28,161 nucleotides of DNA from a virus. The DNA lies in the IMG/VR virus record IMGVR_UViG_3300031578_000265, positions 1 to 28,161 of that record, one strand, 5' to 3'. The notes beneath the pieces were generated by a model that saw nothing but the letters and a program-made list of their open reading frames with translations, did no database searches and had not been told where the DNA came from. Shown here in pieces: positions 3,096 through 28,050 of the stretch (the stretch's first letter is position 1; each line of letters opens with the position of its first letter). Both the position numbers and the translations under genes were made by a program.

Positions 3096-3545
3096 CTACC
3101 TCGGACCTGCGCCGGGACGAAGAACAGTCTGCTCTGATACGGCGCGCTGGCCGGGTCCCGGAGCGTCAGTCAACGTTTGCTGGACCGCGTTTCCAGACTG
3201 GTCAGTGACCGGGCGCGCCTGTGCGGAAAGCGCTTTCTCTGCGTCCGCTGTTTCCTGCGCCTGCGTCTGCGCTGCGGCTAACTCATCCTCGGTCATGGTT
3301 CCAACCGACGGACGCATGGCCTCCATGATGCCGTCAACAATTTTCAGCTCTTCGGCATACCCTGCTTTGATCAGGTGCTCGATTCGTTCGGCGCCAAGTG
3401 CGATCAAGTTTTCGACCTTTCGCACAATAGACGGTTTCCCGCCCGGCGGAACTACCACGACTTCCCCTGATTTGTGATGGATGTGAAGCACTCCCGGCCC
3501 GAGCCATCGAAATGCTTTCGGTTTCTGATTCGTCTGATCTGACAT
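3096..3545 (-). CDS. Head-operon protein of unknown function (149 aa)
   Basis: The N-terminal 75 residues contain a GEVVVVPPGGKP turn followed by two helices (KVENLIALGAERIEHLIKAGYAEEL). That helix-Gly-Tyr-Ala pattern is similar to the small neighbours at 2925 and 3807. The C-terminal half is Ala/Gln/Thr-rich and low in complexity, so probably flexible or coiled. It lies between capsid and head-tail connector genes, suggesting a virion assembly role. I do not recognise the family. Confidence 0.6.
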   Translation of the reverse strand: MSDQTNQKPKAFRWLGPGVLHIHHKSGEVVVVPPGGKPSIVRKVENLIALGAERIEHLIKAGYAEELKIVDGIMEAMRPSVGTMTEDELAAAQTQAQETADAEKALSAQARPVTDQSGNAVQQTLTDAPGPGQRAVSEQTVLRPGAGPR

Positions 3546-3563
3546 TTCTCACCTCTCCTCGAG

Positions 3564-3806
3564 TTAGCTACCGACCACGGACCCTGCCGCGATCAGCGCT
3601 CTGACTGCCGATGTTACCGGAGTGTCGGCGGCAACCGCGGTCTGCACGGGAGTCCCCGGCATTCCCGCAGCGTAACAGCGATACCATCCGTTTGCCTGTG
3701 CGAGAGAATACAGTACATGGGTTTTTGTGCACACAGGGCATGCATCCGTATACCATCTGTCACTACCATATCCGCCTGCACCGCCATAGGTATTGATAGC
3801 CGCCAT
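3564..3806 (-). CDS. Small head-operon protein with CxxC motif (80 aa)
   Basis: The start ATG at 3806 directly follows the stop of the upstream gene (TAAATG). The first 45 residues are Gly/Tyr-rich and contain CPVC plus a later WYRCYAAGMPG, so three cysteines could bind a metal or form disulfides. The second half is Ala/Val/Thr-rich, like the exposed parts of head-fibre or decoration proteins. Function unknown. Confidence 0.55.
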   Translation of the reverse strand: MAAINTYGGAGGYGSDRWYTDACPVCTKTHVLYSLAQANGWYRCYAAGMPGTPVQTAVAADTPVTSAVRALIAAGSVVGS

Positions 3807-3959
3807 TTACCGCCTCACATACTCCGCGTTTCCCGCGCTCACGTGCTTTTCAGCCGTGAATGAATCAACGTATACAATTTCCCCAGGATGCGCCACGACA
3901 TGCCCACGATCTGTGAGCACGCCGCGCGCGACCCATCGGATCGCGATCGACCCGACCAT
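3807..3959 (-). CDS. Small head-operon protein (50 aa), downstream of capsid
   Basis: The ATG at 3959 overlaps the capsid stop codon as TAATG, which fixes this start and gives 50 residues. The sequence has a beta turn with HPGEIVYVD followed by a short helix and AEYVRR. Small proteins of this type are common just after the major capsid gene in lambda-like head modules, but their role is mostly unknown. The pattern (G-E-x-V-x-x-D, then helix, then G-x-A-E) is shared in outline with 2925-3089 and with part of 3096-3545. Confidence 0.65.
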   Translation of the reverse strand: MVGSIAIRWVARGVLTDRGHVVAHPGEIVYVDSFTAEKHVSAGNAEYVRR

Positions 3960-5194
3960 TAGCTCGTGGTACCTACGACGAGAGTAGCCCAAGCGTCAGT
4001 CTGAGTCGTCGGGAACACCGGTGCGCCCTGCATGCGCATCGTCAGGTGTTTCCGGTCGTTCGAACTGTATGCGTCGGTATAGAACATCTGCGGGAGCACG
4101 GTCTGGCTGTCGCCCTCGATATTCGGCGGAAGGATCGGAGTTGCGGGGTTAAACGCGAACCTCTCCATCATCTCCGACGCCTCAATCGCGGTGAGCGGCA
4201 GGCGCTCCGGAGGTCCGAAATACCGGTCATTCCGTGATTCGGTTGACCCGACAAGCACTTTGGTGTCGTCGAAGAACTTTGCCTTCGTCTGCGTTCCGTC
4301 GAGCGTCGCCGAGTCGTACATGTACGGATAGGTGAAAATCACAAGCTCGTATCCCTTCGGGGTCATCATGACTCCCCACGGCTTGAGTCCGGCCTCGACG
4401 AGGTAATCGTACTGCGGATCCGGCTTCTGGTCGAGCCCGAATCTCAGAAGTTGGAAATACAGTTTGTTGGCGTAGACTGTGGTGATCTGCGGGTTTGCGA
4501 GGAAATAGTTCATGACCGTTCCACCAAACACGGCGAAGTTCGGCATCACCTTTCCGGCAAAAAGAAGCTGATCGCAGATCGAGTCAAGATCAGTGAGCGG
4601 AACGCCCAATGGGTTTCCCCACCCGTGCGACGGGGTGACGGTGTTCGCACTGTTGCGCCGCCAATCGTAGATATTGACGGTCGTGTCTGCGGTCGACTGG
4701 TAGCTCTGCACTCCGAGGAGGAGCGACTGCCACGCAAGCACTTCCTGCAGACGCACCATGCGCCGCACAAGTTCCATGTACCCGTATCGGGCGAGGATTC
4801 GCAGGCGGTCGGCCTCGGTTAGATTGTCGTAGGGACCCTCTGAACCGATGACACGGAAGTTGAGCTGGTCGGCGCCGAGGTTGAACTCCTCTTCGATGAG
4901 CGGATAGGCGCGCGAGAACATCGTTCCCTGGTTCACCTGCACATCGTGGTTGCCGGGACCAACGAATCGTCCGACCATTCCACGAGGTTTGAGCGCGGCC
5001 AGTTTCTGATTCGCGCGTACAATTTCGATGTCAAGCGCGTTCGCGTTCGGAGAGAACACCGTGAACGATCCTGTCCCCGGTCGTCCGAACATCGCCTGTC
5101 CTGCCGTGTAGAGTCTGACGTAATTCGACTCGCGGAATCCTCCTGCGAGGACGCGGGCAAATACGTCAAATACTCCGGGTGTACTGTATGCCAT
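3959..5194 (-). CDS. Major capsid protein (lambda gpE-like)
   Basis: This 411-residue protein is the probable HK97-fold shell subunit. It directly follows the gpD-like decoration gene and the protease/scaffold gene, the order C-D-E of lambda. The start has a good Shine-Dalgarno (AGGAG, 7 nt upstream). An arginine/glutamate-rich helix (RRMVRLQEVLAWQSLLLGVQ) around residue 145 matches the spine-helix region of gpE-type capsids. Later segments, a leucine/aspartate helix followed by a region around FGGTVMNYFLANPQ and a GYELVIFTYPYMYD strand, fit the A-domain pattern of this family. It is about 70 residues longer than lambda gpE. Confidence 0.85.
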   Translation of the reverse strand: MAYSTPGVFDVFARVLAGGFRESNYVRLYTAGQAMFGRPGTGSFTVFSPNANALDIEIVRANQKLAALKPRGMVGRFVGPGNHDVQVNQGTMFSRAYPLIEEEFNLGADQLNFRVIGSEGPYDNLTEADRLRILARYGYMELVRRMVRLQEVLAWQSLLLGVQSYQSTADTTVNIYDWRRNSANTVTPSHGWGNPLGVPLTDLDSICDQLLFAGKVMPNFAVFGGTVMNYFLANPQITTVYANKLYFQLLRFGLDQKPDPQYDYLVEAGLKPWGVMMTPKGYELVIFTYPYMYDSATLDGTQTKAKFFDDTKVLVGSTESRNDRYFGPPERLPLTAIEASEMMERFAFNPATPILPPNIEGDSQTVLPQMFYTDAYSSNDRKHLTMRMQGAPVFPTTQTDAWATLVVGTTS

Positions 5195-22452: not shown

Positions 22453-24453
22453 ATGTCTAAATCACCGTCATCGGTCCGAACCGCGTGCCCGTCCTGCGGG
22501 TCAATCATCGGCCACGATGTGCCGGACGGCAGGTACTGCGACAACTGCCATACCCTCGCATTCAGTCGCACCGCGATGGTCACGATGAGCGAATCCGAGC
22601 GACAACAGGCCGAAGCTTACGAAACAGCCGCGGTCATGCAGCGCAAAAACGCGCAGGCGGCCAAGGCCGAACAGAAAAAAAACCGATTGCCTGTTCTCAT
22701 CGGCGAGCTGTCCCGATTGTCCCGACCGGAATATGAGTTCTCGCGCGCCGAACTTGCGAAAAAAGAAAACGTGCGTCCTGAGTTTCTGGATGAAATATAC
22801 AAGCGTGCGCGCTCAAAATCACGCGGTGACCGGCCTGAAACATCCCCGGACAACGTGGAGAAAACTCGGAACGGCGCGAACCCGAAACACGTTCCGTTTC
22901 GCATCCTCGGGGTGGCCGACGACGGGCTTGCCTATTTTCTCGATGACTATAGTAGATTGCAATCGTTCAGGCCCTCGGGAATCACGAAAGGTCAGCTTTT
23001 GCAATTGGGAGATCTCAACTCGTTCTGGTATCGCGAGTTTGGCCACAAAGGCCACGTGCAATGGGATGATGCGACAAACTGGATAGTGCGTGAGTCAAGT
23101 GCGCGGAGTTTTGATCTTTCGGTGATCCGGGGACGCGGTGCGTGGAGGGAACGTGATGGGAGTATCTGTTACCACGACGGCCAGGAGACCTACGGGACCC
23201 CCGACCCGACGCGAATCTATCAGAAAAAAAGCCGTCTGGATTTGGGATTGGAGTCGAATCCTGCAGGCGATTCTGTGCGACAACAAATGCTCCGCGCTGC
23301 GGGCATGCTCAGTTTCGAGACAAAAGCGGATGCGGCCCGGCTTTTAGCGTGGTCAGCTCTTGCCCCATTCTGCGGCGCACTCCCGTGGCGGCCGGCTGGC
23401 TTTGTTACAGGTCCGTCTAAATCGGGGAAATCTACCATATTGAGTATGATCGTGCGGAAACTCGCGCTTCCGCTCGCGGTATCAGGTGGCGCGACGGATG
23501 CGTATATCAGGCAGAAACTCGGGCTTGATGCGCTCCCGGTCGTGATCGATGAGGCCGAGGGCGCCGATGAGACTGACCGGCACCGGATGGAGGGGATTCT
23601 CTCGCTCATGCGACAGTCGACATCGGACGATGCACCATTGATCGGCAAGGGCTCAACTTCCGGTAAACCGATCGAGTTTCTGACGCGCTCGATGTTCCTA
23701 TTCAACGCGATATCGCCGAACGTCGGGAAACTCGCGGATGCAAATCGACTGTTTACTGTCGATCTCGTGCGACCTGAGAACAATTGGCATGCGATCCGCG
23801 ACTCGATAAAAGATGCATTTACCGATGTAAATTGTGCCGGTGTTCGGGTTGCGACGTGGAAATTGCTTCCTGAGATCATCGCTGAGGCCGAGCGGATAAG
23901 TGATTTCGTGGGCGAGGCGACGCTCATGGACTCACGCTACGCGCTGCAAGAGGCGATACTCTGGGCGACATTCTGGCTCGTATGGAAAGGAGAGCGCGCG
24001 AGTGATGACACGCTTCGGACGTGGCTTGCATCCGTGTACGACCAGAAAGCACCAGAGGAACAGGAGGATGAAGCGGACGGGATGTTGTCGCGTCTCATGG
24101 ACGAGGTTGTTCAGGTTTCTGGTAAACCATCGGAGCGTGTTCGGATCGGGAAAATCGTCGACCGACTGCTTGACGTGGCCGATGAGGATGAGCTCATGCC
24201 AGCCCCGGTATCAGGTGATGACAGGAGGTACTACAAAACTACACTCGAGAACTACGGGTTGCGGCTCACGCGGGAAGGGACGCTTGCGATAGCGATTCAC
24301 AATCCGCAGCTTGAGCGCGTCTGGGGACAGCGAGGGTACGCAAAAGTGCTCATGCGCCATCCATCCTGTATCGAGCGCAACAAAAACGTGCGCAACGTCC
24401 GATGCATGGTGATATCGGCAAGCGCGACGTCACGAGAGGAGATTCCGATATGA
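22453..24453 (+). CDS. DNA primase/helicase (zinc ribbon + ATPase, DUF927-like)
   Basis: In this 666-residue replication protein, residues 12-32 form a zinc ribbon (CPSC ... CDNC). Helical and basic parts follow, then an ATPase core with Walker A GPSKSGKST (320-328) and Walker B VVIDEAEG (Asp366-Glu367). A sensor-like strand (SMFLFNAISPN) comes about 60 residues later. The later part is helical with charged ends. The Walker pattern resembles phage DUF927/primase-helicase proteins that load and move along DNA at forks. Start ATG 22453 has AGGTG about 5 nt upstream. The methyltransferase remnant overlaps the stop by ATGA. Confidence 0.75.
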   Translation: MSKSPSSVRTACPSCGSIIGHDVPDGRYCDNCHTLAFSRTAMVTMSESERQQAEAYETAAVMQRKNAQAAKAEQKKNRLPVLIGELSRLSRPEYEFSRAELAKKENVRPEFLDEIYKRARSKSRGDRPETSPDNVEKTRNGANPKHVPFRILGVADDGLAYFLDDYSRLQSFRPSGITKGQLLQLGDLNSFWYREFGHKGHVQWDDATNWIVRESSARSFDLSVIRGRGAWRERDGSICYHDGQETYGTPDPTRIYQKKSRLDLGLESNPAGDSVRQQMLRAAGMLSFETKADAARLLAWSALAPFCGALPWRPAGFVTGPSKSGKSTILSMIVRKLALPLAVSGGATDAYIRQKLGLDALPVVIDEAEGADETDRHRMEGILSLMRQSTSDDAPLIGKGSTSGKPIEFLTRSMFLFNAISPNVGKLADANRLFTVDLVRPENNWHAIRDSIKDAFTDVNCAGVRVATWKLLPEIIAEAERISDFVGEATLMDSRYALQEAILWATFWLVWKGERASDDTLRTWLASVYDQKAPEEQEDEADGMLSRLMDEVVQVSGKPSERVRIGKIVDRLLDVADEDELMPAPVSGDDRRYYKTTLENYGLRLTREGTLAIAIHNPQLERVWGQRGYAKVLMRHPSCIERNKNVRNVRCMVISASATSREEIPI

Positions 24454-24737
24454 GCCTGCGAAACGTGATATTGGTCGGTGACGTGCTCGACCGTCTGCGC
24501 GAAATACCGGACGAGTCCGTGCATTGCGTGGTGACTTCTCCGCCGTATTGGGGATTGCGGGACTTCGGTATCGAGCTCAATCCAGCCTATGCAGAAATGG
24601 CTCGGAACCGAATCGAGCACGGCACCGTTGACCCCTCCGAGGTATCAGAAATTGAGTCGCAAGGTATGCTTTTTGACATGAGCAATTCCAACATTATGCA
24701 ATCACCAGCGCAGGAGGCCGAGCATGCCGCTCCGTGA
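24450..24737 (+). pseudogene. DNA methyltransferase with in-frame deletion of the central domain
   Basis: The ATG at 24450 overlaps the helicase stop as ATGA; a start at 24402 would be inside the helicase. The 95 residues begin with the start of a beta-class adenine/cytosine methyltransferase: GDVLDRLREIPDESVHCVV, followed by motif IV SPPY (30-33) and WGLRDF. The sequence then jumps straight to GIELNPAYAEMARNRI, which in intact relatives follows motif I (DPFxGSGT) near the C-terminus. The target-recognition part and motif I are absent, so it cannot bind S-adenosylmethionine normally. The frame is intact and still overlaps the DEAH helicase start. It may be a recent loss or a retained mini-protein. 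Confidence 0.75.
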
Positions 24738-26388
24738 CTACCAATTATCGCTTGTCGACGGCGCGCGCGAGATACTGCGAAGTTCCCGGTCGTGCCTGAT
24801 CCAGCTACCGACCGGTGCGGGGAAAACGCCGGTCGTCGCTGAGATCACCCGCGCCGCGTTCTCGCGGGAGTTTCGGGTATGGTTCGTGGTCCCGAGGAAC
24901 GAGCTACTCATGCAGGGCTCGGAGCATTTCGCCAAGTGGGGCGTACCGCACGGGTTCATATCCGCCGGACGCGAGGAATCCCGAGCGTATCGCGTGCATG
25001 TTGTATCAAAGGACACACTTTTACGCCGACTCGACCGGATCAAGAATTGGCCGGATCTCATCATTTTCGATGAGGCTCATCTGTATTACGATGCGCAACT
25101 GAAAATCATCGAACACCTGCCGGAACGGTGCCGAGTGATCGGCATGACCGCGACTCCTGAGCGCCTCGACGGCCGAGGGCTGTCAGATATCTACGGAGGT
25201 ATTGTGTATGGACCGAGCATTCCTGAGCTCACAAGGGTGGGTTTCCTTTCTCCTCTTAGATATTTCGCGCCGCCAATTGAGGGGCTGGATAAAGTTCATC
25301 GAAAAGGAACCGAATATGATGCTCACGAACTTGAGGCGCTCCTGGAGAAAAGGAAGATTTACGGGGATGTGGTCAATTACTATCAGAAATATGGAACTAT
25401 CAACCATTCTGGGAGGTCCTTCCCGGATCAGCCGACGGCTCGCTCGAATACCGATTATCACAAAGGAAAACCCGCCCTCATTTTCACTCGGTCGGTAAAG
25501 TCCGCATACGAGACCGCAGAACGATTCACACAGGCCGGGTTCCTGTTTTTTTGTATTGAAGGAAACATGCCGCAGGAACGGCGGAAAGCTCTGATCGAGG
25601 CATTGCGCAAAGGAGAAATCGATGGTCTTACAAATTGCGAGATTGCGACGTACGGGCTGGACGTCCCTCGCGTGGAGTATGGGGCGAGTATTCGGCCGAC
25701 TCTGTCTCGTGCTCTATATTTCCAGAAGGTGGGACGCCTTCTCCGTCCATTTCCAGGGAAAGAGGAAGCACTATTCTTTGACCATGCGAACCTGGTTGAG
25801 GAGCACTCAGAACCATTGGCTCCCGGAGTTCCGCTTTTCTACCTGGAAAACATAACCTGGAACTTCGAAGGCCGCGAGGTGCGCAAGCGCGAAAAGATCG
25901 GCGCTCCGATCAGACTATGTCCGGCGAGGGACTATATGTACTGCGACGATCCGGGGTGCGCGCGGGGATGCAAACTCGATCCGAACGCTGCGCTCAATCC
26001 GCGCGGATCATTGGAGGTGATCGATGCCCCATTGGTTGAGCGCACGGCGAAAGCGGCCCTGCGAGATTACCCGCCAGATGAGCGTTCGGCAATCGAAAAA
26101 CGGATAGCGACCGCGACCGCCGAGTTTATCCATGCTGCGGAGGCCGATCCGACGCACATCGAATCGGGGCCGGTCGGCGCGCTCCTGCAGATAGCGGACG
26201 AACTCGGGTATGCTCCGATGTGGGTGTATTGGCGGCTCATGCCGAGAGCCGCCGGCATCGTGAATGTCCCATTGTTGCACGAGATCGCGCGGCAGAAAGA
26301 GTACAAGCCAGGCTGGGCGTGGTGGAAACGCAAACAGATACGCGATGGTATCCGCGAGGGAGCGGAGAAATCAGAATCGAAACAATAG
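24724..26388 (+). CDS. DEAH-box SF2 helicase
   Basis: In this 554-residue RecG/Rad25-like superfamily 2 helicase, Walker A PTGAGKT is at 29-35 and DEAH at 116-119. GMTATPERLDG (motif III) follows, then a glycine/aspartate region and motif V/VI (TYGLDVPRVEYG, QKVGRLLRPF with arginine fingers). After residue 395 there is a Cys-rich stretch (CPARDYMYC, CARGC) that could bind zinc, and a helical, Trp-rich C-terminus. Residues about 205-240 seem an insertion relative to simple SF2 helicases. By eye the part encoded by about 25230-25860 is less GC-rich than its flanks. It probably assists phage replication or recombination. Confidence 0.85.
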   Translation: MPLRDYQLSLVDGAREILRSSRSCLIQLPTGAGKTPVVAEITRAAFSREFRVWFVVPRNELLMQGSEHFAKWGVPHGFISAGREESRAYRVHVVSKDTLLRRLDRIKNWPDLIIFDEAHLYYDAQLKIIEHLPERCRVIGMTATPERLDGRGLSDIYGGIVYGPSIPELTRVGFLSPLRYFAPPIEGLDKVHRKGTEYDAHELEALLEKRKIYGDVVNYYQKYGTINHSGRSFPDQPTARSNTDYHKGKPALIFTRSVKSAYETAERFTQAGFLFFCIEGNMPQERRKALIEALRKGEIDGLTNCEIATYGLDVPRVEYGASIRPTLSRALYFQKVGRLLRPFPGKEEALFFDHANLVEEHSEPLAPGVPLFYLENITWNFEGREVRKREKIGAPIRLCPARDYMYCDDPGCARGCKLDPNAALNPRGSLEVIDAPLVERTAKAALRDYPPDERSAIEKRIATATAEFIHAAEADPTHIESGPVGALLQIADELGYAPMWVYWRLMPRAAGIVNVPLLHEIARQKEYKPGWAWWKRKQIRDGIREGAEKSESKQ

Positions 26389-27645: not shown

Positions 27646-28050
27646 ATGGACACGACGATAGATTTGGCTCGGGTGCTCGATTCTCATCGCCAGTGGATGG
27701 AGCGAGGGGAGGGAGATCGTGCGAACCTGAGCGGTGCGGACCTGCGCTATGCGGACCTGAGCGGTGCGGACCTGAGCGGTGCGGACCTGCGCTATGCGGA
27801 CCTGAGCGGTGCGAACCTGCTCGGTGCGATCCTGCGCTATGCGGACCTGAGCGGTGCGAACCTGCACGATGCGAACCTGCGCTATGCGGACCTGAGCGGT
27901 GCGGACCTGAGCGATGCGAACCTGCGCGGTGCGGACCTGCGCTATGCGAACCTGAGCGGCGCGGACCTGAGCGGTGCGGACCTGCTCGGTGCGAACCTGC
28001 GCTATGCGGACCTGCTCGATGCGAACCTGCTTGGGTTACTACCAGAGTGA
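27646..28050 (+). CDS. Pentapeptide repeat protein (134 aa)
   Basis: After a helical cap of about 25 residues ([19 protein letters not shown]), the whole protein is a run of A(D/N)LxG-type pentapeptides: [20 protein letters not shown] and similar, 20 full units and a partial one. Such proteins fold as a right-handed quadrilateral beta helix; Qnr/MfpA members mimic DNA and bind gyrase, but most phage members are unassigned. AAGGTG lies ahead of ATG 27646. No dimerisation helix of Qnr type is visible. Read in frame; the other-frame and antisense ORFs here are repeat shadows. Confidence 0.9.
27721..28020 (+). repeat. 20-unit 15-bp tandem repeat within the pentapeptide gene
   Basis: Exactly 300 nt of 15-bp units of the kind GCGGACCTGAGCGGT. 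Units ending in CGCTAT (Arg-Tyr) occur at units 2, 5, 8, 11, 15 and 19, giving a higher-order period of three and then four units. The near-identity of units suggests recent expansion by slippage or recombination. Confidence 0.85.

Follow-up and report, generated by a model that had tools for sequence, protein, structure and literature searches.

DNA methyltransferases (MTases) of the beta class carry their conserved motifs in an established order, and the roles of motif I (DPFxGSGT) in SAM binding and of the target-recognition region are likewise established. Phage MTases of this kind normally shield phage DNA from host restriction. For the lactococcal 936-group phages, the available text of one account reports one type of orphan MTase in the replication region of 41 of 90 phages (PMC4759559), cites homologues of these MTases as protecting against restriction (PMC4759559, citing PMC4190342), and mentions shortened replication-module homologues without known function (PMC4759559). 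These orphan MTases resemble the genomic slot described here in being accessory genes distributed patchily among phages. However, homologues of the 936-group MTases are active, unlike what is expected of the gene described here, and a gutted MTase is not described in that text (PMC4759559). Our literature search found no report of a protein made of the two ends of an MTase in this way.

The window analyzed here is an entire IMG/VR virus record (28,161 bases). One of its strands carries the genes for tail sheath, major head protein, portal and terminase, and the opposite strand carries most of those for recombination and replication. Near the right end of the record (27646-28050, +) is a pentapeptide-repeat ORF (ADLSGA-type), with DNA matches to pentapeptide genes in other phages. 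A 95-codon ORF (24450-24737, +; translation MSLRNVILVGDVLDRLREIPDESVHCVVTSPPYWGLRDFGIELNPAYAEMARNRIEHGTVDPSEVSEIESQGMLFDMSNSNIMQSPAQEAEHAAP), referred to below as the stub (Table 1), lies between the primase and helicase genes. Residues 1-40 of the stub run up to and include VTSPPYWGLRDFG, which is the beta-class amino-MTase motif IV region, with the motif IV consensus (S/D/N)PP(Y/F) present as SPPYW at residues 30-34. Residue 40 is followed by (G)IELNPAYAEMARNRI, the motif II region found near the C-terminus of beta-class MTases. In the translation, SPPYWGLRDFG abuts IELNP without a spacer at about 24569/24570, although the exact breakpoint is ambiguous within a common glycine codon and the neighboring bases. 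The 95-residue translation bears out the initial annotation, in which SPPYWGLRDF was seen to run straight into a C-terminal motif. The open frame of 95 codons and the 14-nt overlap with the next gene (24724-24737) also stand as first described, but the ATGA coupling had been assigned to the wrong neighbor: its partner is the primase (phrog_35358), whereas the helicase lies downstream.

Table 1. Features of the stub and its neighbors in the window.
Feature	Position	Strand	Evidence
DNA primase upstream of the stub; stop overlaps stub start (ATGA, 24450-24453)	22453..24453	+	phrog_35358 DNA primase, E 1.9e-49
Stub N-part: beta-class amino-MTase residues 1-40, to motif IV SPPYWGLRDFG	24450..24569	+	Translation; phrog_67; identity to L002
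Deletion junction	24562..24570	+	Intact relatives aligned to both sides
Stub C-part: motif II GIELNPAYAEMARNRI and tail with SQGMLFD, including stop codon	24567..24737	+	Identity to L005; LF tails
Helicase ribosome-binding-like site AGGAGG (24712) and ATG (24724), within last stub codons	24712..24737	+	Sequence
DEAD/ResIII-type helicase downstream of the stub	24724..26388	+	PF04851, E 1.1e-22; PF00271, E 9.2e-13; phrog_16, E 1.6e-72

Both ends of the stub are homologous to the same family of intact MTases. Residues 5-39 match phrog_67 with an E value of 1e-13, residues 5-40 are 72% identical to one intact MTase (L002), and in the C-part 15 of 17 residues are identical to another (L005), in which IELNPAYAEMARNRI is unchanged and the similarity continues into the tail (51% over 37 aa). 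Because of the phrog_67 match on one side and the identity to L005 on the other, the resemblance to an MTase is not due to chance, and judging from these alignments the stub contains both genuine termini of a single protein family. As a whole it scores 11.7 bits against Pfam PF01555 (N6_N4_Mtase), below the gathering cut-off of 26.7; an intact MTase from a related contig (L013) scores 184 on the same profile (E 5e-54). Compared with intact PF01555/PHROG 67 enzymes (L013, L005, and L002), the stub retains the N-terminal 40 residues including motif IV, as well as motif II and the C-terminal tail, but lacks motif I, motifs V-VIII, motif X, and the target-recognition region.

The distance between the joined parts had been put at 150-200 residues in intact enzymes, which is too small: in 98 intact relatives, 210-761 residues separate the motif IV and motif II points (median 292, quartiles 267-323), the largest values probably coming from proteins with insertions. 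Generating the stub from a gene of the syntenic L013 type requires the deletion of 281 residues, and from one of the L005 type, 339. The missing middle is absent from the 28-kb record, where tblastn outside the stub gave only weak matches in stop-containing frames or unrelated genes, motif I occurs neither in the stub ORF nor anywhere else in the window, and a six-frame search for [DNS]PP[YFW] finds this motif solely at 24537. A split or relocated gene was rejected because no missing middle is present anywhere in the window. Since motif I and target recognition are gone, the stub product should not methylate DNA, and no such activity appears plausible for it.

The genomic slot occupied by the stub was compared in 13 virus contigs (L010-L022), which have the helicase in common with the window. 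In L013, whose helicase and primase are 46% and 41% identical to those of the window, an intact 350-aa MTase of the stub's type (3354-4406) comes immediately after the primase gene, which it likewise overlaps by 4 bases (3354-3357). The suggested check for a full-length copy in related phages was answered by this syntenic gene. The contig closest by helicase (L015, 64%) holds a different 238-aa amino-MTase in the interval, together with a 360-aa ORF that is C5-type MTase-like by sequence, and L022 holds a 255-aa MTase. The intervals of L010-L012 contain other small genes without an MTase match, while in L018 and L019 the primase and helicase matches are separated by about 0.1 kb or less, compared with kilobases in others. 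The primase-helicase interval is a high-turnover slot, in which MTases are gained and lost and which may otherwise hold other small genes or nothing. Scanning genome contigs with an alignment of the helicase yielded no relative, and a terminase search found only a distant one, on a 5.4-kb contig.

We consider it probable that the stub is what a single internal deletion left of an accessory beta-class DNA amino-MTase gene of the orphan type. Its two ends match one intact family with the middle missing, and the stub is best read in this way because L013 carries an intact MTase of the same family in the same place. These two observations support the in-frame internal deletion proposed in the initial annotation. 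Among the three explanations offered there (loss of the MTase, a retained mini-protein, or assembly collapse), the best fit is that a dispensable MTase was lost, and an ordinary relic of gene loss is the most likely identity of the stub. Probably 210-340 codons were removed in one internal event (281 for an ancestor matching the L013 gene in length), which would have brought motif IV and motif II together by slippage across a few bases or by illegitimate recombination, and the loss of motif I and target recognition would have removed any plausible methylation activity. Because such an MTase serves to shield phage DNA from host restriction, it could become dispensable once host restriction changes. 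The preserved frame may be due to chance (1 in 3) or to read-through into the overlapping helicase start, which would maintain translational coupling.

The second of these options can be taken further, as a refinement of the gene-loss reading in which the stub has no protein function and its frame was kept as continuous translation from the primase to the helicase start aids helicase expression. The ATGA overlap upstream, the 14-nt overlap downstream, and the placement of the helicase start and its AGGAGG inside the stub all agree with such a role. However, the helicase has its own strong ribosome-binding-like site, relatives manage with almost no spacer between primase and helicase (L018, L019) or with kilobases, and a role in translation would account for the open frame but not for the intact motif IV residues. 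We regard this refinement as rather unlikely.

The junction itself bears on both the mechanism of the deletion and the possibility of an artefact. When 65 intact genes were compared at the positions corresponding to the junction, its two sides had 2-3 bases in common in 56, 4-6 in eight, and 10 in one, and the junction homology of the stub was probably 2-6 bases. Because the two sides have only a few bases in common, short-homology illegitimate recombination or replication slippage is the likely mechanism. The same counts bear on an artefact, in which a chimeric read, an amplification deletion, or an assembly error would have removed the middle from a real genome with an intact MTase. Such an artefact is conceivable in that the window is one IMG/VR virus record and the L013 relative has an intact gene, but the 2-6 bases shared in 64 of the 65 genes lie far below the usual assembly k-mers, and an exactly in-frame joining has a chance of 1 in 3. 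This microhomology is too short for a k-mer collapse, so the assembly collapse raised in the initial annotation is unlikely, while a chimeric read or chimeric amplification could still have produced the junction; taken together, we judge an artefact to be improbable.

With an internal deletion in an MTase gene remaining the preferred reading, the condition of the two ends bears on its age. Scored against intact genes, with near-identical relatives left out, the N-part falls at the 99th percentile, a figure biased upward because retrieval of the relatives relied on their similarity to the window N-part itself and to sequences related to it, and the C-part falls at the 81st. The stub ends appear free of decay, which in a single copy fits a recent deletion or constraint alike; we favor a deletion that was probably recent. 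Well-kept ends and a preserved frame in this single copy would also fit a retained short protein.

A retained protein would still bind a partner (for example the sliding clamp via the SQGMLFD tail, or another MTase) and act as a decoy or regulator, and the frame, the start signal, and both ends are intact. A second member of such a family, by contrast, was not found. Two degenerate DNA junction patterns, one tolerating 0-30 nt between the RD and EL codons, returned no second short form from 2.9 million viral contigs, a result whose sensitivity is restricted to the patterns used, since degenerate patterns miss variants; the second pattern matched the window as a positive control. By these patterns, the viral contigs gave no further independent member of a natural short-protein family. 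Neither 50,697 phage records nor 72,556 plasmid records yielded a match covering 80% of the query.

The 160 loci retrieved by the stub N-part are mostly full-length, with a minority cut by contig ends, frameshifted, or without the C-part. Microcystis phages Mae-JY04/28 and L003 initially resembled further short forms because the tblastn match extended beyond the junction, but these candidates were rejected, their genes encoding full-length proteins of 478 and 516 aa. N-terminal MTase stubs at other loci (L066, L146, L136, L109, and others) are not of the same design, with the C-part wholly lost. One viral contig (L059:2941-3676) does contain an independent internal deletion of an MTase, spanning approximately residues 184-369 of the reference. 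Like the stub, it joins an N-part to a C-part with a portion of the middle absent; unlike the stub, it retains more of the middle (about reference residues 1-184) and motif I, and its C-part is in another frame. Since deletion derivatives of MTases do occur, an in-frame one is to be expected now and then. A separate observation among the intact viral genes is an intein-like insertion in the L002 MTase (L002:5004-6881), located between SDIIW and the conserved KPNAMPES, which starts with Cys and ends with LTHN before Ser.

The tail of the stub supplies the remaining argument for a binding role. QxxLF resembles the known beta-clamp-binding pentapeptide, and among 99 intact MTases (loci L002-L008, L013, and L026-L185) the tail contains QxxLF in 13, against 0.3 expected from shuffles, and LF in 42, against 6.0. 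Examples after motif II include QQELF, QQSLF, EQLKLF, and GQRDLF, and the stub keeps QGMLF. We take this enrichment as a lead about the MTase family more than as evidence for the stub. Single-sequence AlphaFold predictions were of low confidence for both the stub (pLDDT 48) and the intact L013 MTase used as a control (pLDDT 32), and so speak neither for nor against a retained protein. A kept partner binder acting as a decoy or regulator seems to us very improbable, and slightly more so a rare phage micro-protein built from two MTase ends that persists because of some non-catalytic task, for instance binding the clamp or interfering with another MTase.

Should the stub nevertheless prove to be expressed and kept, it would illustrate how the remains of an enzyme can be reused as a small binding protein. 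Read as the most likely relic of gene loss, it offers a clear snapshot of a phage losing an anti-restriction MTase through a single clean deletion in a turnover slot.
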